From positions 20,314,806-20,378,805 of the forward strand of contig CM048848.1 of NCBI GenBank assembly GCA_026545225.1: 64,000 nucleotides of DNA. The letters are read 5' to 3'. This document shows, one piece after another, positions 6,277 through 63,604 of this stretch. The DNA comes from Cornus controversa (taxonomy: Eukaryota; Streptophyta; Magnoliopsida; Cornales; Cornaceae). How positions within the stretch are numbered: the first letter of the stretch is position 1; every line of letters begins with the position of its first letter. The notes beneath the pieces were generated by a model. It had not been told where the DNA came from and ran no database searches. It was given only the letters and a program-made list of their open reading frames with translations. The position numbers and the translations under genes were made by a program.

Positions 6277-6279
<3 letters not shown>

Positions 6280-36407: not shown

Positions 36408-36427
36408 TGACATTCAATTACAGCCAT

Positions 36428-38819: not shown

Positions 38820-38879
38820 CTGTGGGAATCCCATACCCACGACCTCATTAACCTAATTGTCCTACATGATTTATTCATG

Positions 38880-39500: not shown

Positions 39501-39608
39501 GGAACTCAGAGCGAAGGTGGAAAGTATGGCCTAGGCCATGAAAGAAATAGGACTTGCTACAATAAAGGATCTGGTACAGCAACCAACCTTCCTTTCTCCG
39601 CCGGCATA

Positions 39609-40511
39609 ATGAATTGTCCTTTGCCTAACAAATTCAAAATGCCCCCTATGGAGAGTTTTGACGGGACCAAGGACCCGTTGGATCACTTGAAAACTTACAA
39701 AGCATTAATGCATCTCCAAGTAGTGCCAGATGAGATTATGTGCAGAGCCTTCTCCACTACATTAAAAGGCTCTGCCCGATCATGGTTTAATAGCTTGAAA
39801 CCTACATCTGTACACACTTTTAAAGAATTGAGTCAGTTATTTGTGGGAAACTTCATTGCCGCTCGAAGACATAAGAAATTAGCTACCTATCTCCTGAATG
39901 TGAGACAAACCAAGGGGGAAACATTACGAGACTATGTCAACCGATTCAATAGGGAGATGTTGCAAGTGGACGCCCTCGAAGACAAGGTGGCGGTTACTAC
40001 ATTCATGGGAGGCCTACTCCCCTCAAAATTCCTTTACTCAATCTCCAAACATCCTCCAGAGAACATGTCTGAATTACTCATGAAGGCTCAGAAGTTCATG
40101 AACGTTGAAAATGCCCTCGAGGCCCGAAGGGAAAAGGGAGATAACGACAAAAAGACAGATAGGAAAAGGGGAGCACAATCTGGAGGAAAGGATGAACGAA
40201 ACCCTAAATATGGCCGATCATCACAAGATCAGACTGACAGGGCGCCACTTCGTGACAGGGGATTCAATTTTACCCCTTTGAATACGTCGATAAGCCAGAT
40301 CCTCTTTCATATTCAAGATGATCCGACGGTGACATGGACTCCAAAATTAAAATCTGATCCCTCTAAAAGATCTCGTGACAAATATTACAGGTTTCATCGT
40401 GACCACAGGCACGATACAAATGAATGCTTAGATTTGAAGAGACAGATTGAGAGTCTAATTCCGAAGGGCCAACTGCAAAGATTTGTGGATGGCGATGGAA
40501 GAAGAGCATAA
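39609..40511 (+). CDS. Tat gag polyprotein (open, main domain)
   Basis: A 300-codon uninterrupted ORF for the structural gag protein of a Tat element. Residues ~15-120 form the retrotransposon gag domain (FDGTKDPLDHLKTY, FSTTLKGSARSWF, HTFKELSQLFVGNF). Residues ~100-170 carry LRDYVNRFNREML and FMGGLLPSKF. A basic linker then leads to YYRFHRDHRHDTNECLDLKR, where the family has a C-x-FHxDxGHxTexC zinc-knuckle-like motif; the first Cys is Tyr here. Upstream gag sequence is in other frames, so this is probably only the open part of a damaged gag. It is the longest intact ORF in the window. Confidence 0.85.
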   Translation: MNCPLPNKFKMPPMESFDGTKDPLDHLKTYKALMHLQVVPDEIMCRAFSTTLKGSARSWFNSLKPTSVHTFKELSQLFVGNFIAARRHKKLATYLLNVRQTKGETLRDYVNRFNREMLQVDALEDKVAVTTFMGGLLPSKFLYSISKHPPENMSELLMKAQKFMNVENALEARREKGDNDKKTDRKRGAQSGGKDERNPKYGRSSQDQTDRAPLRDRGFNFTPLNTSISQILFHIQDDPTVTWTPKLKSDPSKRSRDKYYRFHRDHRHDTNECLDLKRQIESLIPKGQLQRFVDGDGRRA

Positions 40512-40667
40512 AACCCCCCACAAGATAGAACAGAAGATACTACTCGTAGAAATCCTCTGTTGGGGGAGATCAGAGTCATCTCTGGGGGAATTGGAGGTGG
40601 CAGAGAATCTAATACGGCTTGAAAAGCACATGCAAGAAAAGGCAAAAAAAATTTTGAGGTAGGTGAG

Positions 40668-41075
40668 GTGAGCCAATCACCCGCCAAGTACCCTCGACTG
40701 GATGATCAGATTATTACTTTTATAGAGGCTGATGCAAGGGGGGTTCAACAACCCCATGATGACGCCCTTGTAGTCACGTTGATTATCACCAATTTTACAA
40801 CCAGGCGAGTGCTAATCGACAATGGCAGTTCTGCTGATATCCTATTTATGACCGCATTTGATCAGATGAGAATTGGAAGGGAGAAGCTCAAACCTACCAA
40901 GTCTCCACTTGTTGGTTTTTCTGGAGAGAAGCTTCTTCCGTTTGGTACTGTAAACCTCCCGGTCACTTCTGGCTCAAGCCCCAAACAGGTCACTAAGATG
41001 GTGTCCTTCTTCGTGGTGGATTGTCCGACCACTTACAATGTCATCTTGGGAAGGGCCACGTTGAATACAATATGA
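40668..41075 (+). pseudogene. Tat aspartic protease
   Basis: The frame has VTLIITNFTTRRVLIDNGSS, the active-site motif of Tat proteases ([VI]-D-x-G-S-S-A-D-I-L), then LVGFSGEKLLPFGTVNLPV and TYNVILGRATLN, equivalent to the ILGRPWL motif. The active-site Asp is present. The ORF stops at TGA 41073-41075, so it is not joined in frame with RT. Confidence 0.85.
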
Positions 41076-41199
41076 GCAGTGACCTCCATTTATCATCTCC
41101 TCGTCTAGTTCCCCACTGACAATGGGATTGGAGAGCTTAGAGGTGACCAAGCCACTGCCCGAGAATGTTATACCTCGTCCCTGAGAGAGAAAAGGGTGT

Positions 41200-42240
41200 C
41201 AGAAACTTTAAGCATAGAAGGTGTAGAAGTGGAAGAAAGTGAGAAAGCCCGCCACGCTGAACCTATGGAGGAATTAGTTGAGGTCAACTTGTTTGAACAT
41301 GAGGCAAGAAAAAAGGTGTACGTAGGGTCGTCGCTTTCACCCACCTCTCAAAGTGAACTTATGCAGTTCCTCAAAATAAACCGGGATGTGTTTGCCTAGT
41401 CTCACGAAGACATGCCCAAAATTGATCTAGCCATTGCTATACACCGGTTAAATGTCCACCCAGATGCCAAGCCAGTTAGGCAAAAAAGGAGAACATTTGC
41501 CCCAGAAAGAAATTTAGCAATCTTTGAAGAGATGGATAAATTGTTAAAGGCCAACTTTGTACAGGAAACCCATTACCCGGATAGGCTAGCAAATGTAGTC
41601 CTTGTTAAAAAATCCAATGGCAAATGACATTTGTCTGTTGACTTTACGAATTTAAATAAAGCATGTCCAAAGGACAGCTTCCCCCTTCCAAGATTGATAT
41701 GCTGGTAGAAGGCACGGCTGGATGCGAGCGACTTAGTTTCATGGATGCCTATTCGAGATACAATCAGATCCCAATGTTACCATCAGACCAAGAGAAAATG
41801 TCCTTCATAAAAGAAAGGGGCCTATATTGCTATACAGTTATGTCGTTTGGTTTAAAGAATGCCGGCGCGACTTACCAGAGGCTCGTGAACAGAATGTTTA
41901 AGGAGCAAACTGGCAGAAATATGGAGGTATATGTTGATGATATGCTTGTTAAAATCCAAAAAGCTATAAGCCACTTGGATGATTTACAGGAAGCTTTTGA
42001 TGTTTTGCAAAAGTACAGAGTGAAACTTAACCCCAGCAAGTGCGCTTTTAGGGTGTCGTCCAGAAAATTCTTGGGCTACTTGGTTAGTAAGAGGGGGATA
42101 CAGGCCAACCCACAGAAGGTGTAGGCTATTCTGGATACAAAGTCACCCAGAACGATCAAAGAAGTCTAGAAATTGATGGGAAAGGTGGTAGCATTGAGCC
42201 GACTAATCTTCCGAGCCATAGACAAGTGTCTACCATTTTT
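41200..42240 (+). pseudogene. Tat reverse transcriptase, one stop and frameshifts
   Basis: The RT domain. KIDLAIAIHRLNVHPDAKPV, ANVVLVKKSNGK, then a TGA replacing the Trp codon at 41625-41627, followed by LSVDFTNLNKACPKDSFPLP (RT block B). A frameshift near 41690 restores IDMLVEGTAG, LSFMDAYSRYNQIPM and MSFGLKNAGATYQR. The catalytic YVDD is at 41930-41941 (EVYVDDMLVK). Then come LNPSKCAF and FLGYLVSKRGIQANP, with stops after QKV and in the thumb. All palm motifs are recognisable. Confidence 0.93.
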
Positions 42241-42268
42241 CTAGGTTCTCAAATGAGCCTTTGAGTAG

Positions 42269-42742
42269 ATGCCGGAATGCGAACAGGCCTTGAGTGAGAT
42301 AAAGCAGTACCTCAGTTCACCTCCGCTTTTATCTTGCACGCAACCAGAGGATGAGTTATATTTATATTTGGTTGTCTCCCCTGCAGCAGTCAGTTCAGTA
42401 TTAGTACGAGAAGAGGAAGGGGTGCAAAAGCTAGTTTACTACACCAGCAGAGTGCTTCGAGGCGCAGAGGAGAGATATCCGTTAATAGAAAAGCTGGCGT
42501 TCGCTCTTGTTATGTCAGCCAAGAAACTCAGGCCATACTTCCAAGCACATACCATTACAGTACTAACTGATCAGCCGCTCCGGCAAGTCCTCTTCAAGCC
42601 TAAAACCTCTGGGCGGCTCGTGAAATGGTCCATGGAGTTAGAGGAGTTTGACATTAGATACAAACCGAGGTCGACAATTAAAGGTCAAGTGCTGGCAGAC
42701 TTTATAGTTAAGTTCACCTATTCTCTAGAAGAAGTTTCGTAG
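42269..42742 (+). pseudogene. Tat RNase H (retroviral type)
   Basis: An open segment in continuation of RT: CEQALSEIKQYLSSPPLLS, YLYLVVSPAAVSSVLVREEE, VYYTSRVLRGAEERYPLIEK, ITVLTDQPLRQVLF and KGQVLADFIVKF. It is the RNase H of Ty3/gypsy pol, whose job is to remove the RNA strand. It ends at TAG 42740-42742 before the second RNase H. Confidence 0.9.
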
Positions 42743-42785
42743 GAAAAGGAGGAGAGCTCAGTCCAACAGAACAAAGAAGACCAAA

Positions 42786-43200
42786 TCAACCTGGGTTGTA
42801 CATGGGAATTATTTGTCGACGGATCGTCAAACGCACAAGCTAGTGGCGCAAAGATATTGATCAAATCCCCATAAGGGGAAACACTTAAGTATGCCTTGCA
42901 GTTCGGATTCAAAGCTACAAACAATGAAGCTGAGTATGAGGCCTTGATCGCAGGGTTAAAAATAGCTGATGTTCTTAAGATACAATAGCTGAAAGCTTAT
43001 ACCGACTCTGAGCTGGTTGCCCGTCAAGTACGCGTAGAGTATGAGGCAAAGGGATCAAAAATGAAATCTTACTTGCAGAAAGTCTAGGAGCTAGTCACCC
43101 ATTTCTGAAAGTTTTCCATCACACGGGTTCCCCGCAGTGAAAATTCTAATGCAGACGCTCTCGCTCGACTCACTACGGCACAAGAAGCTACTAATGGGGG
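42786..43200 (+). pseudogene. Tat additional archaeal-type RNase H (aRH)
   Basis: A second RNase H follows the first, as in the Tat lineage. Catalytic positions are visible: Asp in WELFVDGSSNAQ, Glu in ATNNEAEYEALIAGL, Asp in AYTDSELVARQV, and Asp in NADALARLTT. Stops occur after LIKSP, at KIQ and at two later places. This domain places the element firmly in Tat. Confidence 0.9.
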
Positions 43201-43491
43201 AGTATTTATAGAACGTTAAGACAGCTTGAGTGTAACAGAAGAGGTGCTGAATGAGGTAAACCAAGTCACCCACGGCATGGAGTGGGCAAACCCAATTGGG
43301 ATACATTAGGGATGGCGAGCTACCATCTAACAAGACTGAGGCACACAAAATAAGGATCAGGGCATCGAGATATACCTTGATCGATGGAATCCTCTACACA
43401 GTTCTCCCTTATTATTACAAATCAAAGGACATATCTTGACAATCCAAAGAGCCAATCGGAGTGTTCCTGAGGTCTGGCGAGCAACTTTCAT
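43201..43491 (+). pseudogene. Tat integrase stub, core deleted
   Basis: Only the leading part of integrase is left: DGELPSNKTEAHKIRIRASR and YTLIDGILYTVLPYYY, the segment before the zinc finger. The next bases jump to EVWRATF-like sequence and the polypurine tract. The HHCC finger, DDE core and C-terminal domain are gone, a deletion of more than 1 kb. Confidence 0.8.
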
Positions 43492-43505
43492 GAACAGGGG
43501 GCATC
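43492..43505 (+). promoter_or_regulatory. Tat polypurine tract
   Basis: GAACAGGGGGCATC directly before the 3' LTR. It is imperfect because CATC separates the G-run from the LTR start. Confidence 0.65.
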
Positions 43506-43873
43506 TGATAGAGTATTTGACTCTGACTATAAAACGAATGACATGGAAGATAAAAACAAAGTGACGTGGACAAAAGTCTATCTTTGACAGGGGTGTCTCT
43601 ATCTCCAAGAAGGACTGGAAAATTGAAAGAACTAGTCTCCAACCACAATACAACCTCATTTTATCTTTATAAATATAGAGACGGTCCAGATACCAAGGTA
43701 CGCAATTAATACCCTCTGATTTCCTTCATAACTTAAAAAGCCCCTTCTGATTTCTAACTTGATCGTCGAAGCGAAGTTGTCTGGTACCACACCGATGCCT
43801 TATCGACTACCCTTCTTTTGTCTTTTTCACAGGTTGGCATTTGACCAGCTCGGGGTGAATTTCTGCTTCATCA
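43506..43873 (+). mobile_element. Tat 3' LTR
   Basis: 368 bp, TGATAGAGTATTTGAC to TTCATCA, followed by TSD ATTTT. It differs from the 5' LTR by scattered substitutions and small indels. Confidence 0.93.
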
Positions 43874-45418
43874 ATTTTAATAAAATCTCATTAAATCAAA
43901 AAAAAAAATTGTAAACCACAAAACTCACAAGGCAAACCATATAACAGAACAGCAACCCTGAATTTTGACGAAAGAGTTGATGGACACAGAGGTGATGTCA
44001 GTATAAAGGCCAAAGTCTTTACTTTATCTCCTTGTACAGGCACAAAAATTTTAGTTCCAGCAATCAACACATTTGGAGGAATAGTAGAAGGAACATTCCC
44101 TCCAAGCACGAGGGCAGTTTGAGTACGATTGACTCTGAGAACTGGTTCATCTGAGGGTTCCATAGCCACAACTTGAGGCCAATAAACTACTTACAAATAA
44201 GAGTCTTGTGTCATGACATTCCTCGAACATCTCATGCTACTATGAAGAATAGAAAAATTCACCTTGAAGTAGATGATGGTGCCCTTGGTATTTTGCATCT
44301 TTTGGCTGCAAGGAATGCACAAAGCTGAACTGCAATTCCAATTGATACAAATACTGAAAAGATCACCTCTGGCAAGATATCTATCTATTTCAAAGTAATT
44401 ATGTAATGCCAGATCAATCATTTCTTAACGATCTTCAGCTTCAATAGACGAACTTTGTTTAAGAGATTCAAAGGTACCACATTCTGCTATCTTCACAAAA
44501 GAAACCCTCAAGTGTGAGGCATATCTTGGTAATGGAGCCCAAGGTTCAAATCCTACACTGATGATAGAGGCCTCATCCCCTTTTGCATTTGTTTCATCAT
44601 CGACATTAACTTCAAATGAAGATACCAAAGCCAGTTTCCCTTGAAGAACAAGCAATTTCAAGCATGATACATGCAAACTAAGGTTAAATGCCAGGAGGGG
44701 AGATAGATAGGCAACTTCTTGATCTAATAACACACTGTGAATTTGAGGGAGACTATATGAAGAAAAAACTAGCATTACTCGAGAAGACTGGGAAATGGGT
44801 AATCTACTATCCAATGAGTGTTCATGGGTCTTGGGAGGATCAAGAACAATAGCTTGGCCAATTCTCTACATGTTTGTCTCAACATTCTTGACAAGTATGT
44901 AATACATATTTAAAAGAAGAAAAAGGAAAAAGGAAAAAATCAATTGTTTCATCAATCTAGGACACCAAATAAAAAAACTTGTGTAAATGATAATGTAGAT
45001 AAAGAATTAGGTTACAATTGAATAATTAAGTAATTACAAAGAAATGATTTTGCCAAATATGCATAATTACATCCAAGCTGTTGCATGCATAAATGACATA
45101 CAAGAATATTTAAGCCACTATTCAATTTACTTTTGTTGCAGTTCTATGAGCATACTGTACATAAAAATCCACACTTTTTCAGCTTATACATATGTATGTA
45201 TATTTGTTGCAGAATGTGCACACTTTTGATGGGGCATATATGCTTGTCGGATATATATTCTATTTCTTATCAAACCTATTAAGAAAAGAGCAGTTGAGTT
45301 ACAACACCAGTCATCACTAATGCTGATATATAAAAAAGGACACAGAAAAGAAAAAATAAAAGAAAACATGTGGCTCTTACGTTATCCACCCCCACCACTG
45401 ATACATTTTTAGAATTTC

Positions 45419-45582
45419 CATACTTTATTCTGGTGATGTATCAAGAAGTCATACTGAAAAGATAAGAAAAGTATGAACAATGCAATAGCCACTTCAACCC
45501 CATACTTTATTCTGGTGATGTATCAAGAAGTCATACTGAAAAGATAAGAAAAGTATGAACAATGCAATAGCAACTTCAACCC
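45419..45582. repeat. 82-bp tandem duplication in CACTA element 1
   Basis: CATACTTTATTCTGGTGATG to AATAGC(C/A)ACTTCAACC occurs twice (starts 45419 and 45501). Element 2 has one copy at about 61219, so the duplication arose after the elements separated. Confidence 0.9.
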
Positions 45583-46346
45583 CAGACTATTGCAAGTTCA
45601 AAGTGCTCTTTTTTCTCATTCTATATTTCTCTGCAATGAAATGAAAAGTAATGGATTTTTCCTTTTTCTTTAGTGCATGAATCAACTGACACAAAATATC
45701 AATCTGTCAACCAATATAAGCTTTCTAGATATACATCAATAAATCATCACTTGTAAGGCATGAACTAAAAGAAAGTTCTCTTAGAAAAATTTTATATCCT
45801 CTGTTTGGTTTTCAGATAAACTGTAAAAAAGTAAAGAGGTTCGGTTATTGAATCTTAATTTAAAATTTATCTAAATCTTTTAATTATCTTGAACTTAAGA
45901 AAACAAATTTCTCCAGTTATCGGAGCCTGATACAACTACTTTGATCAATTGAGTCGTGAACAAATCTTTCAAATATTTTTTTTTTGTTAAGGAAAGTAAC
46001 AAATCTTTCATATTTGGGAAACCAAGATTACATAAAATATCATCCAGTTCTATTTTCTTTTCTTCTCTTATATTTTCTGGTAACCAAACAAGGTCATAAA
46101 GTAACTAATTATAGCAAAATTCTAAACAATCATAAAAAGAAATAAAAAAAACGTACCAGTGATCCTGAAGTTATCGATAGCTTCTTGAAGACAGACATGG
46201 GGAGCCCAACTAAGGCAGAGTCATCGAGAGAGGCCATCTTCATGAAGACGAAGCAGATCCTCATAACTCAAATTGTTCAAACTCTCACCTGTCCTTTGCC
46301 TACCGAATTAAGCAAATTCATCAAAAATAGCAACACACACAAAACA

Positions 46347-46589
46347 TGTAATACCCCGTAATTTGAGGATATCTAAATTGGATTTTTATTTATTTGATGG
46401 AGTTTTTAATTATTTAAATACTTTAATTAATTTTGTCAATGCCTGTTTTTATATGTTTAATGTGGATGTTTGAATTGTTGCTAAGTGTTGATTGTGTTTA
46501 ATTGTGTGTTAAATATTTGTCTTAAATATAGTTTTTTTTCTCTGTTAAATAAAAATATGTTGGTTTGGGCTACGTTTTCTTTGTTCTTG

Positions 46590-46622
<33 letters not shown>

Positions 46623-47143
46623 GTTGGGCTAGGCTGCTGGGCTGGGCTATATATATATATATATAGTTGGGTTTAAATTTTCAACTCAGAATGATCTTCC
46701 CTTGTTGTTCAATTGATTTTTAAAGTATCCAAAAGTTGGGTTTTTCACTTTCTGTAATTTTAGAAAATACTTTTGTAATTCCAAAAATTCCCAAATTTTT
46801 GTTGTAACTTTCTGGAGGTTAAATAAACTTGGTTTTAAATTTTCAGCTTGAAAAGAGCTTCCCTTTGTTGTTCAAATGATTTTTAAAGTGTCCAAAAGTT
46901 GGGTTTTTCACTTTCTGTAATTTTAGAAAATACTTTTGTAATTCCAAAAATTCCCAAATTTTTGTGGTAACTTTCTGGAGGTTAAATAAACTTAGGCTTA
47001 AATTTTCATCTTGAAAGGAGCTTCCCTTAGTGTTCATTATATCTTTTGTATTCTATGCTTGTTGCTACCAGTTGTATATATCTCCCAGGTTTTGTGTATG
47101 AGACTGGCCACCTCATGCGCGAAATTTTCTGGGGGGTATTTCA
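46347..47143 (+). mobile_element. Solo LTR (797 bp) with TSD AAACA
   Basis: TGTAATACCCCG to GGGTATTTCA, flanked by AAACA (46342-46346 and 47144-47148). Element 2 has the empty site (CGCAAAACACAATTT near 62046). It contains (TTA)n at 46598-46622 and a 163-bp imperfect tandem duplication (46714 and 46877 starts). No interior region remains, as expected after LTR-LTR recombination. The superfamily is unknown. Strand is arbitrary. Confidence 0.9.
46714..47035. repeat. 163-bp tandem duplication inside the solo LTR
   Basis: TGATTTTTAAAGT(A/G)TCC to GGAGGTTAAATAAACTT repeats with a 163-base period and a partial third unit (CTTAAATTTTCAT, GGAGCTTCCCTT). Confidence 0.88.
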
Positions 47144-47334
47144 AAACACAATTTAAATTTTCAGAAAATTTCAACAACGTAACAGAGCAAATTAAGTAAG
47201 CAACAACTACTCCTAAATATCACCTAATTTCCCTCTAAAATTTCCTATTAATGTCTTTGAGTTTCTTCAAGTTCTCTTGCACTCCCTGCAAAACATCAAT
47301 CAACATATATAAGTATAACACAACGATATATTTC

Positions 47335-47392
<58 letters not shown>

Positions 47393-47401
47393 CACACACA
47401 C

Positions 47402-47445
47402 ACATGGAGTTTGTCGGTGCTGGAGAACATGATGAACTCATGGAG
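47402..47445 (-). pseudogene. Trace of the captured AP3/TM6 MADS-box exon 1 in CACTA element 1
   Basis: Reads MFSSTDKLHE on the minus strand, matching MFSSTGKLHE in element 2 (62487-62439). The exon 2 equivalent is absent; (TA)n and (CA)n DNA replaces it (47331-47403). Confidence 0.7.
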
Positions 47446-47461
47446 TTGTGTGCTGACTCAA

Positions 47462-47600
47462 TCAAGGAGTGAGATTAGGTAAGGGCTTTCAACGAATGGA
47501 AAGAGATTGGGTTAGGGCTGCGATCGGTGAGTGGGATTGGGTTAGGCTTTCGATCGATGACTGAGATTGGGTTAGGGCTTCAATAGTCGGGTGAGATTGA
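47462..47600. repeat. GGGTTAGGG-containing ~36-bp repeats, CACTA element 1
   Basis: Repeats of GTGAGTGGGATTGGGTTAGG followed by GCTTTCGAT-like words. The same series is at 62524-62655 in element 2. These are transposon sequence rather than telomere, because the TTAGGG words are isolated within a longer unit. Confidence 0.7.
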
Positions 47601-47814
47601 GTTTAAATTTGGTTGAGGAATAGAGATTATGGGTTGAGATTTTGAGTAGAGCTGAGGGAATGAGAGAGAAGGTCTGAAGTGAAGTGAGAGAAAAATTGAA
47701 CGTGCCCATGAGAGAGTGGAAAAGTGTATCTCGCGTGAAACCAAAATAATAGCATGAAATTATTTTTTAAAAAAACTTTAAATTACGGGAAATTAGCGCA
47801 TAATAAAAATAAAG

Positions 47815-48040
47815 ATTTCTACGATGGGCCATTAGCCCGTCATGGAAATCAACTTTCTACCATGGACCTACATGGCTCGTCTTGAAAAGCTAATTTCTAC
47901 AACAGCTTATGCAAGCTCATCATAAAAAGTGACTTTCTAGAAAGGGCTATGCGGGTCAGTCATACAAAATTATTTTTCACGAGGGGCCATGCGGGCCCGT
48001 CGTAAAAAGTCTGTCGTTAAAACCCTATTTTTTTGTAGTG
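47815..48040. repeat. CACTA element 1 right subterminal repeats and terminus
   Basis: Alternating TTTCTACGATGGGCC / GGCCCGTCGTAAAAAG words, then TTTTTTTGTAGTG at the end and TSD CAT. It is more degenerate than the corresponding region of element 2. Confidence 0.87.
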
Positions 48041-48043
48041 CAT

Positions 48044-49689: not shown

Positions 49690-51117
49690 ACACAGCATAT
49701 CACATGAATTTCCATGTATCCATTCCTTGTGAGCCCATTCACATCCACAGTGGCAGCCCAATGGCGCCTCCAAGAATCTACAAGTTCATAGCTACTAGAG
49801 GGGCATGTAAGACCTATTTAGTTGTTGGAGATGTTCTTGGACCCGCTAACAAGCAAACACACGCATCCTAGTAGAGCTTGAACACTCAACCTCCCACTTT
49901 GAGGAGGAAGAGCTATACTGCTAGCCATTAGCCATTTGGTTAATAATGACAACCTTGTATACAGTTACATATGGATATAGAGTCAACTTCGAGCTTCAAA
50001 TAAATAATGGTTAAAAGTCATAAAACTCACTTTATAGATACACAAATCCTAAAATTCAAAAAATTTTAGGTCCAATTCTCTTGAGAAACAAACCTTGAAT
50101 CACATCACTTTTTTTAAAATCACAAAAATTATGTTTAAATGAAATAAACCCTGAAATTTGAAAATTTTAAGTCTAGCTTCTTAAGAATCATCGTAAATTT
50201 AAGTCTAGGCTTCTTAAGAATCGTGGAAAAGTAACCTTTTGCTAATTTTCTTAAATGTAATAAATATTTGAATTCATAAATTATAAGCCTTAAAACAAAA
50301 CAAAAAAGTGAAAAACAAGAACAACAACAACTTGAACAATCTTTCATAAAGTTCGGTTCAAGCAATTTTTTTTGATAGAACAAAATCCAAATTTCATCTA
50401 AGTCAAATTCCTAATAAAACCCTAGTTTCCTTATAATCTAGGAAGTAAACTTTCCAAATCACATTAAAACTCAATAAACTTTTAATTCAAAGAAGTCTCG
50501 TATAAACAATTAATAACTCTTAGCTCATGTTCATAAACCCTCAAGGAAATACTTTGAAGTTCACCACTCAATAATAACTAAACTCCTAATTAATCCATTT
50601 AACATAATTTGATTCATTTATCTACTGTCCCTAGTTAATCCTTCTTTGACAAACCACCGGTACTTCCTCAGTTTTGAAAATGAAAGATTAAAAGTTCAAG
50701 TTTGCAAAATGCCAAGTAAGTTCATGTGTTATTTGCGGGGATAAAATATAAATAATAATAATAATAAAATAAAAGAATCACCCTTGGACTAAAAATTTGA
50801 GTAATCCAACTCATAAGTAATTATTTTTAAGCATGTTACACATCATTCAACTAATATGTTTATGGTCCAACTTAATCAATCAAACTCATAACCATGAACT
50901 ATCAGGAACCTCCTTTAATCAATGAATCTAATATAATTCAATTTAAACAAGTAATTCATCAATTGTATGATTAATATACATCTAACCAAGTATCTTAACA
51001 CACACTCTGCATGCCGACTTAGGTTCAAGAAATCTACTGAGAAAAAAGTCCTTTATAATTTTTTCACTTTTTGCTTTTGCTTTGAAGAGAGAATGAGAGA
51101 GTAAAATAGAGAAATTA
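49690..51117. repeat. Dispersed repeat family, copy C
   Basis: Closely aligned with copy A from about 22735 to 24355 (CATTCACATCCACAGTGGCAG, TAAAACCCTAGTTTCC, TTGCTTTGAAGAGAGAATGAG). It lacks about 290 bases of copy A near 22830-23030. No coding potential. Confidence 0.8.
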
Positions 51118-53110: not shown

Positions 53111-53181
53111 AGTAGAGATAGGGATGGCAACGGGGCGGGGCGGGGCAGGTTTTGCCTTCCCCATAACCGAAACCGTTTAAC

Positions 53182-53705
53182 CACTACAAGAAAATTAGTC
53201 TTTTACGACGGGCCAAAACTGCCTTAAATGACTTTTTAAGGCGCTCCCTGGCCTGTCCTCTATTAAGGCGTTATGATTACTAAGTTTTTTTAAAGGCATG
53301 CAAAAACTTTTTAAAGGCAGTCAGAAACTGCCTTTAATAATTTTAGAAACTCCTTTAAAAGAATTTTTCAAGGCGGTTATTTAGTGTCTTAAAAGTTCCA
53401 TTATTCAAGGCGGTCGTTACACGTCATAGAAGTGTAATTATTTAGGGCGGTCAATTATTGCCTTAGAATCTCAATTATTCAGGGCGGTTAGTTTCTGCCT
53501 TAAAATCTCAATTATTTAGGACGGCCCATGCCCGCCTTAAAAGCTAAACCACATAATATTAAGGGCGGCTTTGGCCCGCCTTAGAAACTAAACCACATAA
53601 TATTAAAGGCGGTTATGGCCCGCCTTAAAAGCTTAATATTAAGGGCAGCTTTGGCCCGCCTTAAAAGATAAGCCTCATATTATTAAAGGCGGCCATTGTC
53701 CGCCT
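53182..53705. repeat. CACTA element 2 left subterminal repeats
   Basis: After one TTTTACGACGGGCC word the array changes to about nine units of AAGGCGGYYATGGCCCGCCTT-type palindromes ending in TTAAAAG. The right end and both ends of element 1 use ACGACGGGC instead. Confidence 0.9.
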
Positions 53706-56671
53706 TATAAAGGTTTTTTTTTTTTTGAAATATTCCTTTTTCTAATACCCCATTCCAAAAACCTGTGAAACCCAATCCAAAAACCTGTGAAACCATACAA
53801 TACCAACATCCAATTTGCATTCGAAGCTAACATATTCAAATGAAAGTCAACCCAAAAACACAGTATGAATAACTTTCATTCCAACCTAAAAGTATATGCT
53901 TCCATACAATATCAATATCTAATTTGCATCCCTTCAAAGCTAGTACATTCAAATGATTTAGCATGCTTAAAAATTACAACCATTAACAAATATTTCTAGA
54001 TACAGTGAACATTTAAAAGACATTCTAGCTATAAATGAACTTAAGCAAAACACTGAACTTGAAGACGTAGTTTAGAGGCAATCGAAACAAAATGGTGCAA
54101 TGGAGCAAGTACAACAGGAGAGAAGACTACTGCTGCTAGTACTGCTGCTGTTGCTGCTACTGCTGTGCTGGTTCATTATCCTGGGAGTTAAGGAGAGAGG
54201 ATCAATGGAGCAAGTACAACAGGAGAGAAGGCAAAGAAAGATCAATATATAATGAAATTTAATTGCAATTTTCTAGCATGCAAGCTTTCAGTTTGATTTG
54301 AATTGTATCATTTAATGTCTTGTTCTATTTAGATTTGAGTGTGTGCATAAAATAATGTTGATTTTTTTTCCTTTTCTAAGCACTAAAAGACTTTTCTAAA
54401 TATTAAAATAGTTTTTTTAGAACATCAAGAGTGTGTTGCACAAGTGAGGACCCACTTAAGTGCTTAGTGTTTAATGCTAAATGAAATGTTCTCGCTTAAA
54501 ATTTAACTTCAGTGTAAGTTCTAAACTGCAATGAAAATGTCTATTTCAAAGGTTGCTCTAGTTACAACTATTGCAGCATTTTGGGGGCGGTACTGCAATG
54601 GGTGTCTAGAGTTTGTAACAGGCATGTGTTTCCTATTTGTTTTTTAAAATGTGCCTAATGATGAATGTAATGGTGTTTCTGATTAAATATAGTTTTATAT
54701 TGCAAGGACAAAAAAAATTGCATTATCAAGCACACAAACAGCACCTTAATTCGATTAGCAATACTAACTTAATTACAATAATACTGTAATGGTAGAGCAT
54801 GACTATTTATACATGTATATCTATTGTAGGAAAAAGTTACAATGAGGGTCTCTCCTTTTGACAAGAGCAACATCCAGATCATTGAATTGAACCTAGATTT
54901 CTCACTCCAGTATCGAGATTACTGAGTTCTAAAGGCTTGGCTAGAAATTCAACATGACACAAAAATCTGAAAGAAAAAATCTTGCACATCAGACATGAAA
55001 AGAAATTGAAATTTACAATAATAATTGTTGCTCCACTAGTAATATTGAAAATTATACAGTAATTGACCAAAAAAATATAAATCTGAAAGTGATCTTTAGT
55101 TGCAATAAATTCTTAGCAACGACAAAACAGTACTCAGGACTTTCTGCTCATACTAAGAGTAAGTAAACAAGGTATACCTTCGATGTATCATTCAAGGTTT
55201 TATCTTGACTTGAACTATTTGTATCATCCTTCAAAGAAGACCAACCATTAGCAATCTCAATACAGGAACTAGTCGTTGCTAATTCAACTCTTTGCCACAG
55301 AAGTATTTGTCGTGGCAAAAAGTTTGTTTTCTACCACGAAATTAATTCGTGGCTATTCTATTACTAATATTAATAAATAATTGATCGCCACAAATAAATC
55401 TCATGACAAATTACAAAAATACACCACAATAATTTCTAAAATACTCCAATTTGAAAATAATTTCAATAGTTAAGCCAAGAAAAGTAAGCAAAAATAATTG
55501 CAAAGTTGTCTCTTTCCACAAGAAACCAATAAGAAAAGAGTCCAACTTCAACCTTATAGACCAGCAACCAAAAGAAACATAACATAAATTATCTTAGTGA
55601 CATTTCAAATATTCAGTTCATAGTAAAATGGGATAGCTTTCCGAATTCCGAACTGTATTTCAACTAGAAGCAAACATCAAAATAACACAGTTCATAAAAT
55701 TTTCAATCACATTATTTTTATCTAAGAATTAATTATGTAATCCTCTGGCCATTCCTTATTCAGTATAAGTTGAGTTTGTAAGTCAGCTTTATCAATAGGC
55801 AGATTATAAATGACATGTACCAAACTTGTGTAGCTAGAATGGTATGCTTATTTAACTTTTAAACATGAAGAATGTATAATTATAACATAAGTAATCTTCA
55901 CCAAAAAATAATAAAGCAATATTAACAAGGCCATGACCAGGATACACCAAGTTCAATTTATAATCATACACTAATGACCTGAGTGACCCATTTAAGATTT
56001 GGTTGAATAGAAACATCTTGCTGAAGATCAAAAAAAATGGTGACATGCCAATAAATGAGACAAATTTGCATTATCCATGCTTTGTCTAAAACTCTAAGTG
56101 TCAATATGTGAGGGACTGACTCAAGATGGGGGCCTCAGCATATCCCAATAATGTGGACCAAACTCACAATATTGCAATCTTTTTTTTTTGGATAAATTAA
56201 TTGAGTTTTATTAAATCAAAAGCTACCAAAAATTAATAGAACTGCAAAAAAGACTCCATTGGAACAGCAGTTATGCACCTACCCTTTGTCACCCAATTCT
56301 ACAGAAGTTGTTAAAAAATATTAAAAAATATGAAAGAGTACTAGTGGTCCAAAGACAGCATCAAACTTCGCAGACATGGAAAGACAGCATAGAGTGCAAA
56401 ACACCTGCAATTTTCAATTTTTAGTTTCATTTAACACCAATTTTCTCATTAAAACCATATTTGTAACAGCGCAATTTTTTCTTCACTCACTAGCCATCTA
56501 GGAGACTCTGGAATAAAGAACAGCCCCACAAGCAAGACAATGCATGGAGCAGGTCCTTCAATTCAAATCAGTTAATCAGTTTCTACATGTCCTTTTTTGG
56601 GTATTAAATTTTACAAATTTTTTAAACTTATACCATATGTCATCATAGAATTATAAACTATGCAAAATTAT
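53706..56671. other. CACTA element 2 left interior, mostly unidentified
   Basis: AT-rich DNA. Contains a CTG/GCT-rich run (54127-54165), an exon-like minus-strand stretch at 55275-55178 (frame CIEIANGWSSLKDDTNS, donor AAG|GTATAC) whose gene I cannot identify, and palindromic words around ACCACGAAATTAATTCGTGG (55336-55356) that may be another transposon fragment. Confidence 0.4.
55178..55275 (-). pseudogene. Exon-like fragment of an unidentified gene
   Basis: A minus-strand open reading (CIEIANGWSSLKDDTNS, then SSSQDKTLNDTSK) ends exactly at a consensus splice donor AAG|GTATAC. It is on the same strand as the other captured fragments in CACTA element 2, so it may be a fifth captured piece. 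Coding status is inferred from the open frame and donor only. Confidence 0.3.
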
Positions 56672-57620
56672 AATTTAACAGAGCTAGTGTTTGCCATGTT
56701 ATCATTGTTCCAATCAAGAATGCAACCAATGAGCCACTATCATGAGCTACAGAAGAGAAAAGAGATGTCAATGATCAAATCCTTTGAATCTGAATTACAT
56801 AAAAATCTAGCATTATGACTCTCCTACCAGATTTAATGGTTGTGAGTCCTCCCCGGAGATTCTTTGATGCTATTTCAGCTATAAATATTGTGATCTATTT
56901 ATTCAATTAAATAAATAGTTTGTTAGATCATGGGACAGTGCAAGAAAACATAAATTCAAACCAAGTAAATAACCTTGTTAAGTTATTTGTAAATTATTCA
57001 GTTGTTAAGTATTTACCAAATAAGAGAAGATGACAATGCCATATCCTGTGAAAATCCTTCCCATGTCAAGTGACAATGTTCCCTATACAAGAATCATGAT
57101 ACAAAGAAAAATAACACCGAGTGATTTAATTTTTATATTTTGACCAAGTTCTAAAGAATAAAAAATGTGCAAATAGTATATACCTTGGAGAAGTAGATTG
57201 CAAGCCATCCGGTAATGCAAAAACCAGTTGACATTCTCATTGCCTGCTTCCATCAACACACCAAAGAAAATACAATTATTAGAAAACAATTGAGCTTAGA
57301 TATGAATTTAGAAGAATTTTAAGCATTACACACCCCTTTTCGACCTAGGAAGTCTGCTATTTTCCCACTTGTTATAGCACCAATCATCGCTCCAATTGTT
57401 AGTAACTTAGTATGGAACCAAATGTGGAGTACTACAAGGTGATAGAAAATTAGTTCCAATTCATATGATATATGGTACTGCTTCTAACGAGGGAGAAGGA
57501 AATGAAAATCAGACAAACCTCAACTAGTGTCAAATTCAAGTCTTCCCTTATAGCAGTTTGAGTAGGTGAAGATCAAAAGTGATAGTCAAGGAGAACTCCA
57601 GGATTTCCCTTGTAAAAATA
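56672..57620 (-). pseudogene. Captured ERD6-like sugar transporter fragment
   Basis: ERD6-like proteins are vacuolar monosaccharide transporters of the major facilitator superfamily. Minus-strand exons: ~57620-57519 (SSPTQTAIREDLNLTLVE); 57431-57334 (YSTFGSIL then LTIGAMIGAITSGKIADFLG, donor GTGTGT); 57243-57184 (AMRMSTGFCITGWLAIYFSK); 57082-57017 (GTLSLDMGRIFTGYGIVIFS); ~56896-56832 (VFIAEIASKNLRGGLTTI); and 56748-56672 (LMI, then SLVAFLIGTMITW). This covers roughly transmembrane helices 1-5, with the diagnostic G-K-x-A-D-x-x-G-R-[KR]-G loop. Lesions: a stop in exon 1, an inserted ~7-base piece that shifts frame in exon 2, and a frameshift in the last exon. The fragment lies downstream (minus strand) of the helicase fragment. 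Confidence 0.9.
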
Positions 57621-57883
57621 TGAAAAAAGTTTAACAAGAGAACTCCAGGATTTCCCTTGTAAAAATATGAAAAAAGTTTAACTACCTTCATCAAAACAAG
57701 CAATCAAATTGACTTTTCAACATAAGGCTACAACCTAATTAACATAACATACAACAAATACCAGCATTTGCATCGGAAGAATAAGTGAAATCTGACACAA
57801 GGAAGACTGTGAACCTTGGACTTTGAATATATATTCACACACATATATTTATATATCATCTAATACATTTATAGAAAGCTCAC

Positions 57884-58560
57884 CACTGCACACTTTACAC
57901 CAATGCCAGATCCTAAAGCTTCAAATTGCTCAGTGATCTGAATAGCAAGCTCTCTAGAATAAGGGAAAATACAATGAGTGATATAAAGCACATCAAATTC
58001 TAAATAGAATCCAATTATAACACAAGATGTACAAATATTAATTTCTTTCACAAACTTAAACCAACAAATCAGATGACAAACCATGTTGGAGAGAGCACAC
58101 ATGCAAAGAACGCCTGTGGAATTCCTAAAAGGGCTTGGAGGCTAGGATAGGGAGTGCAAAAGATGTAATTTTACCAGAACCCGTCTATGCAAGTCCTATC
58201 AGGTCCTTTCCTAAATCACAAAATCCATAGAGTAGAGCCAGCATGATGTCCCATAAAGTATGGATGACTCCAACAAATATAAATGGATGACTTAAAAAAG
58301 AAAATAGTTATCATTTAGATACTAGAAATATACTTAAAAAGAGACTTCCTGTAAAAAACTAAATATAAATAACAAATATCAGTATATAAGATGAAGAAAT
58401 AAAGAGAACGGACCTTCCAATGCATGAGGAATAGCTTCAGCCCGTATCCTGGACGGGTCTTTCCAGCCCAAATTATCACAATCTTCCACTAATTGCTCAC
58501 ATACTCCCAGGTCTTTAAATTACTTGACCTCTTATGCGTCTTCTGCCATCCTTTTCTATA
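57884..58560 (-). pseudogene. RH10: Captured DEAD-box RNA helicase fragment (RH10-like)
   Basis: Minus-strand exons: ~58560-58414 ([35 protein letters not shown], donor GTCCGT), which is the Q-motif region; 58210-58082 (KDLIGLA, TGSGK, FALPIL, LLGIPQAFFACVLS), motif I of the helicase; and 57953-57884 (RELAIQITEQFEALGSGIGV, KCAV, donor GTGAGC), motif Ia (usually PTRELA). This resembles plant RH10/RRP3-type helicases, which act in pre-rRNA processing. The Gln of AxTGSGKT is a stop, GKT has become GKI, a frameshift follows FALPIL, and the PTR of motif Ia is missing at the exon junction. The DEAD box itself lies outside the captured part. The exact paralogue needs a search. Confidence 0.85.
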
Positions 58561-59274
58561 CACCTACCAAAAAAAATAAGAGACCTCAAATCAAGTTAAA
58601 AAAAAGTAAACCCAAATCATATAGAAAGCATTTCTATAAAAAAAGATCAAACTGAAATAATGAAAAAGAAAAGTACTAAAAGCAAAACTTAGTCTTCAAC
58701 AAGCACATATCCATATCCAAACTATTCTTGAGATAATCCTTTTCATGGTGTTACCATTATATTCAATGCCCATGCCACTAATTTCTAATTGATGTCCTGT
58801 ACATATTTCACTACCCCTTCCATTATCTACAGACAATAGTAATCAGTGACAATTACTTGAAGCCTAGTTTTCATGTTCAACAGTAGATAGGTTTTCATAG
58901 AAAGTGAAAAATGATCACCAAAATAGAAGTATAGAACCAAGATGAAGTTGAATCATTTTATAATTAAAAAATGGATGAAGTGAGAGGATGAGATGCAAGA
59001 TGGGTTAACTACCTATCGATTGCCAACATATCAGGATAATAAAGAAGCCAAATGAAAAAAAAATCTTTAAAAATAATTTTTTGAAGAAATAATAATCTCG
59101 ACTTTGCCTATGTTGTTTAGAAGAAAAAAATCAATTAAACAAGAAAAAGAAGGGTAGAAAGATCCTATATTCTTCTTCAATATTCCTTTTTTTTGTGGTT
59201 TTGTTTAACACTACAGTCTTAGGTTATGCAACAACAACATGCATGGATCATACTAAAGAGCAACTAAAATCTGC
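58561..59274. other. CACTA element 2 spacer between helicase and PEX6 fragments
   Basis: The last ~365 bases (58910 onward) are shared with element 1 (37591-37964). The rest has no recognised coding sequence. Confidence 0.5.
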
Positions 59275-61946
59275 CATAGTACCTGCGAGCCGCACTGAAA
59301 GCTTGAGATAGCATAATAGACATATTTTTTTCAGAGGATGCCATTAGATTATGACAACTATATTCCACTACATGCAGGCCCAAACGGTGAGCAACATATT
59401 TAATCACAGTCCTCTTCCCACACCCTGCAAAAAGTACTGAATCAGTACATAGCAACAATTACATAGTCACATGAATGCATATAAATATGTGTGTAATAGC
59501 AGAATAGAAAAATAAGACATTTTATTGTTTCACTTAGAGGTTATTCAACTCACCATAATCATTCAAAAACTTGTCTATGAATCCAGTTTTTAGGATATCA
59601 AGTCACTGCACATAACAGTCCCTTCATTTTTTATCAAATCCTTCGATTCTGTGTTGCAAATTATGACTAACAAGAGTCCCTAAGGCTATAGCGTTGACTC
59701 CCTAATCAACAACATCAGGAAGCTTTTAATTTATTTATTTTAATAAAATCTCATTAAATCTGAACAAAAAATTGTAATCCACAAAACTCACCAGGCAAAC
59801 CATATAATAGAATAGCAAACCTGAGTTTTGACGAAAGTTCTGATGGACACAGAGGTGGTGTCAATATAAAGGCCAAAGTCTTTACTGTATCTCCTTGTAC
59901 AGGCACAAAAATTTTAGTTCCAGCAATCAACACATCTGGAGGAATAGCAGAAGGAACATTCCCTCCAAGCACGAGGGTAGTTTGAGTACGATTGACTCTG
60001 AGAACTGGTTCATCTGAGGGTTCCATAGCCACAACCTGAGGCCAAGAAACTACTTAGAAATAAGAGTTTAGATGATGGTGCCATTGGTATTTTGCATCTT
60101 TTGGCTGCAAGGAATGCATAAAGCTGAACTGCAATTCCAATTGATGCAAATACTGAAAAGATCACCTTTGGCAAGATATCTATCTATTTCAAAGTAATTA
60201 TGTAGTGCCAGATCAATCATTTCTTGACGATCTTCAGCTTCAATAGACGAACTTTGTTTAAGAGATTCAAAGGTACCACATTCTGGTATTTTCACACAAG
60301 AAACCCTCAAGTGTGAGGCATATCTTGGTAATGGAGCCAAAGGTTCAAGTCCTACACTGATGATAGAGGCCTCATCCCCTTTTGCATTTGTTTCATCATC
60401 CACGTTAACTTCAAATAAAGATGCCAAAGCCTCTTTCCCTTGATGAACAAGCAATTTCAAGCATGATACATGCAAACTAAGGTTAAATGCCAGGAGGAAT
60501 AGATAGGCAACTTCTTAATCCAACAACACACTATGAATTTGAGGGAGACTATATGAAGGAAAAACTAGCATTACTCAAGAAGACTGGGAAATGGGTAATC
60601 TACTATCCAATGAGTGTTCATGGGTCTTGGGAGGATCAAGAACGATAGCTTAGCCAATTCTCTAAATGTTTATCTCAACATTCTTGACAAGTATCTAATA
60701 CATATTTAAAAGAAGAAAAAGGAAAAAGGAAAAAATCAATTGTTTCATCAATCTAGGACACCAAATAAAAAAAAAAACTTGTGTAAATGATAATGTAGAT
60801 AAAGAATTAGGTTACAATTGAATAATTAAGTAATTACGAAGAAAGGATTTTGCCAAATATGCATAATTACATCCAAGCTATTGCATGCATAAATGACATA
60901 CAAGTATATTAAAGCCACTATTCAATTTACTTTTCTTGCAGTTCTATGAGCATACTGTACATGTAAATCCACACTTTTTCAGCTTATACATATGTATGCA
61001 TATTTGTTGCAGAATGTGCACATTTTCGATGGGGCATATATGCTTGTCGGATATATATTTTATTTCTTGTCAAACCTATTAAGAAAAGAGCAGTTGAGTT
61101 ACAGCACCAGTCATCACTAATGCTGATATATAAAAAAGGAAACTGAAAATAAAAAAGAAAAGAAAACATGTGACTCTTACGTTATCCACCCCCACCACCA
61201 ATACATTTTTAGAATTTCCATACTTTGTTCTAGTGATGTATCAAGAAGTTATAATGAAAAGATAAGAAAAGTAAGAACAATGCAATAGCCACTTCAACCC
61301 AGACTATTGCAAGTTCCAAGTGCTCTTTTTTCTAATTCTATATTTCTCTGCAATGAAATGAAAAGTAGTGGATTTTTCATTTTTCTTTTGTGCATGAATA
61401 AACTAACACAAAATATCAATCTGTCAACAAATATAAGCTGTCTGGATATACATCGATAAATCATTACATGTAAAGCATGAACTAAAACTCTTAGAAAAAT
61501 TTTATATCCTCTGTTTGGTTTTCAGATAAACTGTAAAAAAGTAAAGAGGTTCGGTTATTGAATCTTATTTTAAAAGTTATCTGAATCTTTTAATTATCTT
61601 GAACTTAAGAAAACAAAATTCTCCAGTTATCTAAGCATGATACAACTACTTTGATCAATTGAGTCGTGAACAAATCTTTCAATTTTTTTTTTTTGTTGGG
61701 GAAAGTAACAAATCTTTCACATTTGGGAAACCAAGATTACATAAAATATTATCCAGTTCTATTTTCTTTTCTTCTCTTATATTTTCTGGCAACCAAACAA
61801 GGTCATAAAATAACTAATTATAACAAAATTCAAAACAATAATAAAAAGAAATAAAGAAAACGTACCAGTGATCCTGAAGTTATTGATAGCTTCTTGAAGA
61901 TAGACATGGGGAGCCCAACCAAGGCAGAGTCGTCGAGAGAGGCCAT
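59275..61946 (-). pseudogene. PEX6: Captured PEX6 fragment in CACTA element 2
   Basis: The same PEX6 segment as in element 1, without a nested retrotransposon. Minus-strand exons: 61946-61866 (SLDDSALVGLPMSIFKKLSI, donor GTACGT); 60694-60069 (acceptor TATTAG; LVKNVEINI, CLKLLVHQGKEALASLFEVN, SHLRVSCVKIPECGTFESLK, CINWNCSSALCIPCSQKMQN); 60035-59792 (acceptor CCTCAG; MEPSDEPVLRVNRTQTTLVL, AILLYGLPG, donor GTGAGT); and 59424-59275 (acceptor TTTGCAG; GCGKRTVIKYVAHRLGLHVV, CHNLMASSEK). Walker A of the first AAA domain (GLPGCGKRT) is intact across the last junction. Similarity ends after AARRY, so the rest of D1 and all of D2 are absent. Lesions include a TAG after INI, a stop at LL(D/*) near 60516, and a ~79-base deletion removing the donor of exon 2. 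Exons 3-4 remain spliceable. Confidence 0.94.
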
Positions 61947-62281
61947 CTTCATGAAGACGAAGCAGATCCTCATAACTCAGATCGTTCAAACTCTCACCTG
62001 TCTTTTGCCTACCGAATTAAGAAAATTCATCAAAAATATCAACACACGCAAAACACAATTTAAATTTTCAAAAAATTTCAACAACGTAACAGAACAAATT
62101 AAGTAAGTAAAAACTTCTCCTAAATATCACCTAATTTCCCTCAGAAATTTCCTATTAATGTCTTTGAGTTTCTTCAAATTTTCTTTCATTCTCTGCAAAG
62201 CATCAATCAACATATATAAGTATAACACAACGATATATATATACACACACACACACATACGTATTAGAAACAGAGAGAGAC

Positions 62282-62487
62282 CTCATAGTGTGAGTTCCGC
62301 AGATCGATCCCCAAAGTCTTCTGGTACTGATCAAACATTGTCTTCATTCTCAAAATATACATAAAAATAAAATAAAATAAGCTAATATTATAGTGAGAGA
62401 AAGAGAGTATAGAGAGAGAGAGAGAAAGGAATATATACGAGATGGAAGGACTGATAAACTCATGGAGTTTGCCGGTGCTGGAGAACA
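62282..62487 (-). pseudogene. AP3: Captured B-class MADS-box gene fragment (AP3/TM6 type)
   Basis: AP3/TM6 proteins are MADS-box factors for petal and stamen identity. Two minus-strand exon pieces: 62487-62439 (MFSSTGKLHEFISPS, the end of the MADS domain in exon 1, donor GTATAT) and 62348-62282 (MKTMFDQYQKTLGIDLRNSH then YE, acceptor TTTTGAG, donor GTCTCT). The second is 67 bp, the usual exon 2 size in this gene group. KTLG(I/V)DLWxSHYE is diagnostic of AP3/TM6. A short intron (62438-62349) has a (GA)n tract. Only about 35 residues are captured and the DNA-binding part is mostly missing. Element 1 retains a trace of exon 1. Confidence 0.87.
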
Positions 62488-62523
62488 TGATGAACTCATG
62501 GAGTTGTGGGCTGACTTAATCAA

Positions 62524-62655
62524 TCAAGGAGTGAGATTAGGTTAGGGCTTTCACCGAAGGGAAAGAGATTGGGTTAAGGCTTCGATTAGTGAGTGGGATT
62601 GGGTTAGGGTTTCGATCGGTGAGTGAGATTGGGTTAGGGCTTCAATAGTCTGGTG
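62524..62655. repeat. GGGTTAGGG-containing ~36-bp repeats, CACTA element 2
   Basis: About four units of GATTGGGTTAGGGYTTCGAT and GTGAGTGGGATT words; shared with element 1. Confidence 0.75.
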
Positions 62656-62819
62656 ATATTGAGTTTAAATTTGGTTGAGGAACAGAGATTATAGGTTGAG
62701 ATTTTGAGTAGAGATGGAATGAGAGAGAAGGTCTGAAGTGAGAGAGAAAATTGAACGCGCCCATGAGAGAGAGGAAGAGTGTATCGCGCGAAACCAAAAT
62801 AATAACATGAAATTATTTT

Positions 62820-63090
62820 TAAAAAACATTTCAATTATGGGCAAAGCCCGTAATAAGAATAAAGCTTTCTACGACGGGCCATTAGCCCGTCGTTAAAACC
62901 AACTTTCTACAACGGGCCTACATGGCCCGTCGTGGAAAACTAATTTCTACAACGGTTCATGCGAGCTCGTCGTAGAAAGTGATTTTCTACAAGGGGCTAT
63001 GCGGGCCCGTCGTAGAAAATTGTTTTTCACAGGGGGCCATGCGGGCCCGTCGTAAAAAGTCTGTCGTTAAAATCCTAATTTCTTGTAGTG
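62820..63090. repeat. CACTA element 2 right subterminal repeats and terminus
   Basis: Five palindromic units of the form TTTCTACGACGGGCC(N4-8)GGCCCGTCGTAGAAA in tandem. The element ends TTTCTTGTAGTG at 63090. Confidence 0.93.
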
Positions 63091-63093
63091 AAC

Positions 63094-63604
63094 TTTCCCC
63101 GTCCCGCAACCATGTATAAACGGGGTGAGGCGGGGCGGGTTTTGACTTCCCCATTCCCATAACCGTTTAACTTTCCCCGCCCCGCCCCGTTTATACATTT
63201 TTTTTTAATGCAAAATCTTTTATAATAATAAATATGATATTTTGATACATATACACCAAAAACACACATTTAGGTACTTGCAACACAATGGATAATATTG
63301 AGTCATCCATTACTGATATAATAAACTTGTATAGTTGAATGATATATATAATATTAATATTTTCTTTATACATTATTAATATTTTCTCTATATATTATAT
63401 ATATAAGTACAAATATATATATACTTAAATGGGGCGGGTACCCGTCGGGGTAGGGTCTTACCCCCCGTTCCCGCCCTGTTTAAACGCGGGTTATTTTCTC
63501 TAATCCCATCCCCACCCCATTTCCTTAAACGATTCCGTAAATGAATTTTAAACGGGGTGTAGCGGGGCGGGTACCCGACGGGGCGGGGCAATTTGTCATC
63601 CCTA
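63094..63604. mobile_element. hAT element, right part
   Basis: GC-rich words GGGGCGGGTACCCG and CCCCGCCCCGTTTA separated by AT-rich DNA; ends TTGTCATCCCTA. No real ORF. Confidence 0.85.

Follow-up and report, generated by a model that had tools for sequence, protein, structure and literature searches.

A CACTA transposon of Cornus controversa carrying pieces of four host genes and its probable stepwise assembly

The stretch of the Cornus controversa genome analysed here (64 kb, hereafter the window; contig C4 of a 771.7-Mb assembly) contains at 53182-63090 a single non-autonomous CACTA transposon of 9.9 kb, named EL1, with exact ends and an AAC/AAC target-site duplication. The sequence CACTACAAGAAA starts at 53182 and its complement ends at 63090, and these are the sole two exact copies of this 12-mer in the window (with up to two mismatches there are 20 matches versus 9.87 expected). 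A single GC-rich repeat flanks the element in two halves (53129-53181 versus 63119-63171, 85% alike), and an uninterrupted look-alike is present at 63160-63185. Three traits of the CACTA superfamily, namely CACTA-type terminal inverted repeats, a 3-bp duplication and subterminal repeats at both ends, were observed in EL1, and the exact termini and duplication reported in an earlier note on this DNA are thereby confirmed. The parts of EL1 are as follows (L numbers denote loci and C numbers contigs of the genome).

53179-53181: target-site duplication AAC, left
53182-53209, plus strand: left terminal inverted repeat of 28 nt, CACTACAAGAAA...; complementarity to the right repeat 79%
53182-54428: left arm, common to the class II family (L018-L023), 87-90% alike by BLAST
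53201-53712: left subterminal repeats, (A)AGGCGG...CCGCCTTAA type
55161-56440: inner stretch, common to class II; with the adjoining ERD6 part 95-96% alike by BLAST
56441-57568, minus strand: ERD6-like sugar transporter fragment, exons and introns, no stops
57566-58870, minus strand: piece of the DEAD-box helicase gene RH10 with its first three coding exons; the codons compared include 3 stops
57591-57682: perfect 47-bp tandem duplication beside the RH10-ERD6 join, present in all six composite copies compared
58897-61949, minus strand: PEX6 fragment that starts within exon 1 and runs to the intron following the first P-loop exon; 4 stops
61945-62493, minus strand: TM6/AP3-type MADS gene fragment with the end of exon 1, exons 2 and 3, the start of exon 4 and three introns
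62494-63090: right arm, common to class III, to L032/L033 and to other elements of the genome
62866-63070: right subterminal repeats, units of about 40 nt, TACGACGGGCC...GGCCCGTCGTA type
63063-63090, minus strand: right terminal inverted repeat
63091-63093: target-site duplication AAC, right

The cargo was placed by tblastn with Arabidopsis proteins, and all four gene fragments named in the earlier note were recovered: AP3/TM6 at 62491-61945, PEX6 at 61949-59279, RH10 at 58549-57881 and ERD6-like at 57572-56491. Read from the right end of EL1 the order is TM6, PEX6, RH10, ERD6-like, and all four pieces lie on the minus strand. Taken singly, the AP3 matches are weak (E 0.004 and 0.008), but the identity of this piece is certain because it is matched by a TM6 gene of the same genome (L031). 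It is 549 bp long and covers the I region and part of the K region without the MADS domain; its exons 2 and 3 join in frame and measure 67 and 62 nt, lengths typical of AP3-type genes. A PDB search independently named DDX47 (E 5.2e-05), the animal relative of RH10. Single-exon Pfam scans were too weak to name TM6 or RH10. GT/AG intron boundaries are present in all four pieces, as previously noted, except that EL1 has lost the last part of PEX6 exon ii together with the splice donor (65 bp that are present in the neighbouring element EL2, at 44205-44269). A six-frame Pfam scan (E up to 0.1) detected no transposase domain, in line with a non-autonomous element, and its only matches, K-box (0.002) and AAA (0.032), are both cargo and both under the curated cut-offs. 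In the inner stretch at 55161-56440 no host gene was recognised. EL1 shows the traits of a Pack-CACTA element: it lacks its own transposase gene, occurs in multiple copies with the same cargo and carries captured host-gene DNA, with donors elsewhere for TM6, PEX6 and RH10 and, for ERD6, relatives among which no intact donor is settled. Such elements could be miscalled as MADS, PEX6 or helicase genes during annotation.

The likely donor genes of TM6, PEX6 and RH10 lie on three contigs. The locus L031 (C7:35.687M) is a TM6/AP3-type gene, open from the ATG through the full MADS domain and the following exons; within the captured stretch it is 89% alike to EL1. At L025 (C6:64.945M) lies a PEX6 gene that has its start codon and shows no stop among the codons compared, of which 354 were usable; its three best protein matches all come from Cornus florida, the first 85% alike over the 506-aa query and the next 63-64%. 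L026/L030 (C8:4.968M) carries an RH10 gene whose exons, as far as examined, are open. Each of these three genes was read in part. ERD6-like relatives occur on C6, C7, C10 and elsewhere, and of the candidates L028 is broken and the one at C10:44.233M is 81% alike. Source loci of the kind anticipated earlier, intact as far as exons were examined, were found for three of the four genes. Ancestral linkage, in which the four fragments would have lain together in a chromosome region without CACTA ends, was rejected for this genome, with TM6 on C7, PEX6 on C6 and RH10 on C8. A tandem cluster of ERD6-like matches, 84-94% alike, is located at C6:32.55-33.63M and is a possible home of the ERD6 donor. 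An RH10 piece was also observed at L027 (C2:63.408M, positions 4700-6692), beside TTTGCGACCAAA-type repeats and a TTTGTTGTAGTG end whose flanks did not match, and RH10 DNA may thus also reside in a different CACTA-like element. In the RH10 introns L027 is closer to EL1 than the gene is (0.031 versus 0.058). With a site pattern of 23/19/19 (one site different in all), L027 was provisionally set aside as donor or shared capture, and its RH10 piece may be a shared or a separate capture.

Other copies of the composite, for which the earlier note had proposed a search, are present in the genome. DNA searches were performed with the whole element (35 of 930 candidates scored) and with its TM6 (36 of 36), RH10 (13 of 13) and ERD6 (32 of 32) parts. 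The composite was found at ten loci on six contigs; at the tenth, C1:51.32M, the right part alone was found. The nine copies with both ends and their duplications are listed here.

C4:20.37M (EL1): AAC
C4:21.42M: TAT
C4:2.44M: TGC
C1:49.16M: ACA
C1:87.16M: AAT
C8:0.78M: ATT
C6:34.60M: ATG
C5:25.89M: TAT
C10:3.98M: ATG

A 3-bp duplication was observed at all nine, with flanks that differ among them, and the composite therefore moves as a unit; the TAT at C4:21.42M is less certain, since it sits in an AT repeat. For C4:21.42M and C4:2.44M the ends were read and the interior follows from the TM6, RH10 and ERD6 part searches. In the copy on C10 the ERD6 piece is down to 386 bp and the RH10 piece to 150 bp, and L012 and L013 lack part of PEX6. 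An assembly artefact or chance similarity, which has only its general possibility in its favour, is extremely improbable with ten loci on six contigs and nine two-ended copies in different surroundings. The concern that the two termini might belong to different elements applies to the past and not to the present unit: the composite is mobile as a whole, whereas its arms come historically from two CACTA lineages.

A second, related element, EL2, was overlooked in the earlier note. Self-comparison of the window showed that the right half of EL1 recurs at 37585-48040, 5.1 kb from EL1 when measured between the two elements and in the same orientation.

36425-36427: target-site duplication CAT, left of EL2
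36428-48040: EL2, a relative of EL1 in which TM6 and PEX6 pieces lie between the CACTA ends CAGTACAAGAAA (left, one change) and TTTTTTGTAGTG (right)
37036-46240, minus strand: PEX6 pieces of EL2, interrupted by a nested retrotransposon
38442-43873: nested long terminal repeat (LTR) retrotransposon; LTRs at 38442-38809 and 43506-43873, 93% alike; target-site duplication ATTTT
46347-47141: 0.8-kb insertion within the TM6 part of EL2
48041-48043: target-site duplication CAT, right of EL2

The PEX6 part of EL2 extends one exon further 3' than that of EL1 (37146-37036), and tblastn gave no RH10 or ERD6 match in EL2. As the PEX6 source gene EL2 was rejected, because it has stops and CACTA ends. The insertion at 46347-47141 starts with TGTAATACCCC, ends with GGGGTATTT and has repeated CAAAACA-like flanks and an internal tandem duplication of 163 bp; it may be another DNA transposon.

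Relatives of EL1 elsewhere in the genome preserve parts of the composite in different combinations. A search with the right arm (40 loci scored of 578 candidates) returned at least 12 loci that match from query base 5 (62504), are 75-84% alike and are absent from the TM6 match list; these right arms fit a pre-TM6 state. L032/L033 on C5 combine the right arm with a TM6 piece whose 5' join is the same, and here TM6 continues past the point at which EL1 switches to PEX6. In EL2, L016 and L017 TM6 is joined to PEX6, and EL2 and L024 retain PEX6 beyond EL1's RH10 join, with both alignments ending at the same base. The six class II loci (L018-L023) combine a composite-type left arm with an ERD6 piece, and none of them occurs in the TM6 or RH10 lists; one of them, L023, shares the EL1 inner stretch only from 55697. 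Another, L019, the class II locus examined for further cargo, holds in addition a leucine-rich repeat piece (E 0.0013, below the curated cut-off) and an NPF-like transporter piece recognised by eye, and class II may contain yet other gene pieces. L019 and L023 are two-ended with matching duplications, L020 has a left end with one change and flanks that do not match, and at L018, L021 and L022 no right end with matching duplication was found in the stretch examined. Judged by these sequences, the left arm and ERD6 piece of the composite belong to another cargo-bearing CACTA family, and RH10 lies at the seam. Among the ten composite loci, the PEX6-RH10 join is at the same base in all seven copies compared and the RH10-ERD6 join in all six, and therefore one assembly event suffices for the composite.

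Taken together, EL1 is very probably a non-autonomous Pack-CACTA element that was assembled stepwise and then spread as a unit. As the structures show, a right arm occurring in many elements first gained the TM6 piece. TM6 was then trimmed within exon 4 and joined to PEX6 exon 1. Subsequently, the left side, from within a PEX6 intron, was replaced by the RH10 piece and, from a second CACTA family, by a left arm with its ERD6-like piece. The resulting composite now stands complete at nine sites and has a 3-bp duplication at every one of them. This order rests on structure and not on a clock, because substitution rates differ along the element, and dating of the captures by intron divergence was rejected for the same reason. 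Intron divergence, calculated as Kimura two-parameter distance (K2P), was 0.116 for TM6, 0.056 for PEX6 and 0.058 for RH10, and 0.055-0.063 for ERD6 against L028. Between class II and the composite the distance is 0.032-0.043 for the inner stretch but 0.064 for the left arm, and composite copies differ from each other by 0.006-0.024 in the gene introns.

Several observations weigh against this reading. Elements without TM6 could instead have lost it. The L032/L033 stage is a single insertion and not two independent ones, because both loci are 99.3% alike with one right flank, and no left end was found within 7.6 kb at L032. Likewise, EL2, L016 and L017 have one right flank in common, so that the TM6-PEX6 stage too amounts to a single insertion, present as three segmental copies. 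The direct donor of the composite's left half was not found, and the ERD6 piece of present class II elements is shorter than that of the composite. The captures of PEX6, RH10 and ERD6 are not separated by intron divergence, and the rate of change in TM6 and right-arm DNA is about 1.4 to 2.3 times that of the PEX6 introns. Finally, the cognate autonomous element is not proved. A TNPA/TNPD-type transposase of another element would move the composite in trans, and the genome contains many Transposase_21 genes (150 scored of 492 candidates). Two of them share the orientation of right arms of this family, from which they lie about 14 kb inward, and are candidates only; left ends of these two elements were not found in the 6.1 kb examined at each.

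The joins themselves provide hints to the mechanism. Alignment overlaps at the joins amount to about 2-6 bp. In EL1, EL2 and L032 some 17 bp of exon 1 are present twice next to the TM6 5' join, as read from the alignment, which looks as if synthesis had started and jumped back at TCATCA. Donors look intact and introns are kept, and therefore genomic DNA was copied. We infer repair synthesis with template switches as the origin of the joins, because of the intact-looking donors, the kept introns, the short overlaps and the templated duplications beside two joins. The last step could also have been a tandem insertion, as proposed for Arabidopsis Pack-CACTA, in which a class-II-like element and a TM6-PEX6 element flanked RH10 and lost their facing ends, so that the outer ends moved together with RH10. 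The layout fits, with the left part of one family, host DNA innermost and the right part of another; the model and fused elements of two families are described in section 9 of PMC8903248 and section 7 of PMC13317346; and the EL2-EL1 pair is just the configuration required. However, the RH10 gene at C8:4.968M is open in the exons examined, and BLAST of the 9.9-kb RH10 locus L026 against EL1, EL2 and L019 returned just the captured stretch, although this locus may have carried both elements in the past. Moreover, both the duplicated 47 bp at the seam and the jump back seen in the older TM6 join resemble copying errors. We consider tandem insertion a doubtful, though serious, explanation and prefer repair synthesis with template switches over a fusion of neighbouring insertions. 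How transposons with terminal inverted repeats capture genes is still debated (PMC13317346). In C. controversa assembly stages and likely donors of three pieces occur in one genome, so that joins are readable base by base, and with stages and donors preserved, template switching and insertion fusion can be tested against each other in related species.

It is tempting to speculate, with the balance still slightly against it, that cargo-bearing CACTA families of this genome exchange whole arms and thereby recombine separately gathered gene pieces into larger composites. If so, the composite and L024/L029 would be two products of such exchange, and the EL2-EL1 pair would be a substrate for another round. 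At L024/L029 (C2:46.267-46.273M) an EL1-like left arm (85%) is accompanied by a PEX6 piece, and TM6 and a right end were not found in the 9.9 kb examined.

The cargo looks neutral. For PEX6 the ratio of nonsynonymous to synonymous substitution rates (dN/dS) came to 1.06 (9 changes) and 1.10 (14 changes) when composite copies were compared with each other, and to 1.12 against L024. Six comparisons of RH10 and ERD6 rest on 1 to 11 changes each, four of them without a synonymous change; RH10 gave 1.37 against its gene and ERD6 1.39 against L010. Values below 1 for PEX6 speak against neutrality (0.57 against EL2, 0.60 against L016 and 0.50 against the PEX6 gene), with p about 0.06 for EL2 by hand estimate, and those against EL2 and L016 are not explained. 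The four pieces would be passenger DNA and any chimeric transcript a by-product. Alternatively, a chimeric transcript from the right arm might be spliced and yield a short TM6 peptide of the I region plus K region that interferes with B-class MADS dimers. All four pieces lie on one strand (a chance of 1 in 8), many splice sites are kept, and the TM6 frame across the four exons is open in three of eight composite copies (EL1, L009, L015); chimeric transcripts are reported for Tgm-Express1 (PMC1947982) and for a Tpn1 element (PMC5105172). A functional cargo is nevertheless improbable: the TM6 frame is shifted in the other five copies (L010-L014), PEX6 has stops, its dN/dS is near 1 in the comparisons between composite copies, and EL1 no longer has the splice donor of PEX6 exon ii.

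CACTA elements that hold several captured genes are a known phenomenon, and what is unusual here is the completeness of the assembly series. The view that four source genes in one element are a striking case was overstated. Soybean Tgm-Express1, a 5.7-kb CACTA element in intron 2 of the F3H (Wp) gene, holds exon-intron pieces of five unrelated host genes and its chimeric transcripts were seen by reverse transcription PCR (PMC1947982). EL1 resembles it in the kind of cargo (four genes versus five) and differs from what is described there in its 9.9-kb length, its nine two-ended copies and its mapped donors and intermediates. In the Ipomoea nil Tpn1 family (PMC5105172) the interior is likewise replaced by host genic regions and 3-bp duplications occur in all but one of 339 elements; it has a putative autonomous element, TpnA1, whereas none is proved for the EL1 family. 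Pack-TYPE elements, including Pack-CACTA, are known from Arabidopsis, rice and maize; their fusions as presented in section 9 of PMC8903248 are small PIF and Mariner elements, while in EL1 two families already carrying gene pieces were joined with a further host gene at the seam. A floral-identity gene piece was also captured by Chenopodium CACTA-like elements, 80 bp of AP2 upstream of the transposase domain (PMC8978399); in EL1 the TM6 piece, its three introns included, is 549 bp long and belongs to a composite that lacks transposase. A literature search at the level of titles and abstract openings found no paper on the EL1 family.

Further features of the window lie outside EL1 and EL2. A plant snoR71 match at 5321-5426 scores 41.7 bits against an Rfam cut-off of 40. 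Between 6241 and 22619 there are nested long repeats (13721-15612 with 19715-21599, 94% alike; 6383-7777 with 12304-13720, 97% alike), perhaps nested LTR retrotransposons. A dispersed repeat occurs three times, at 23031-24354, 33804-34737 and 49804-51116 (80-89% alike). A satellite-like array of 77-bp units, or 4.1 copies of a 231-bp unit, occupies 29149-30070 and contains CACTACAAACAA six times on the plus strand.

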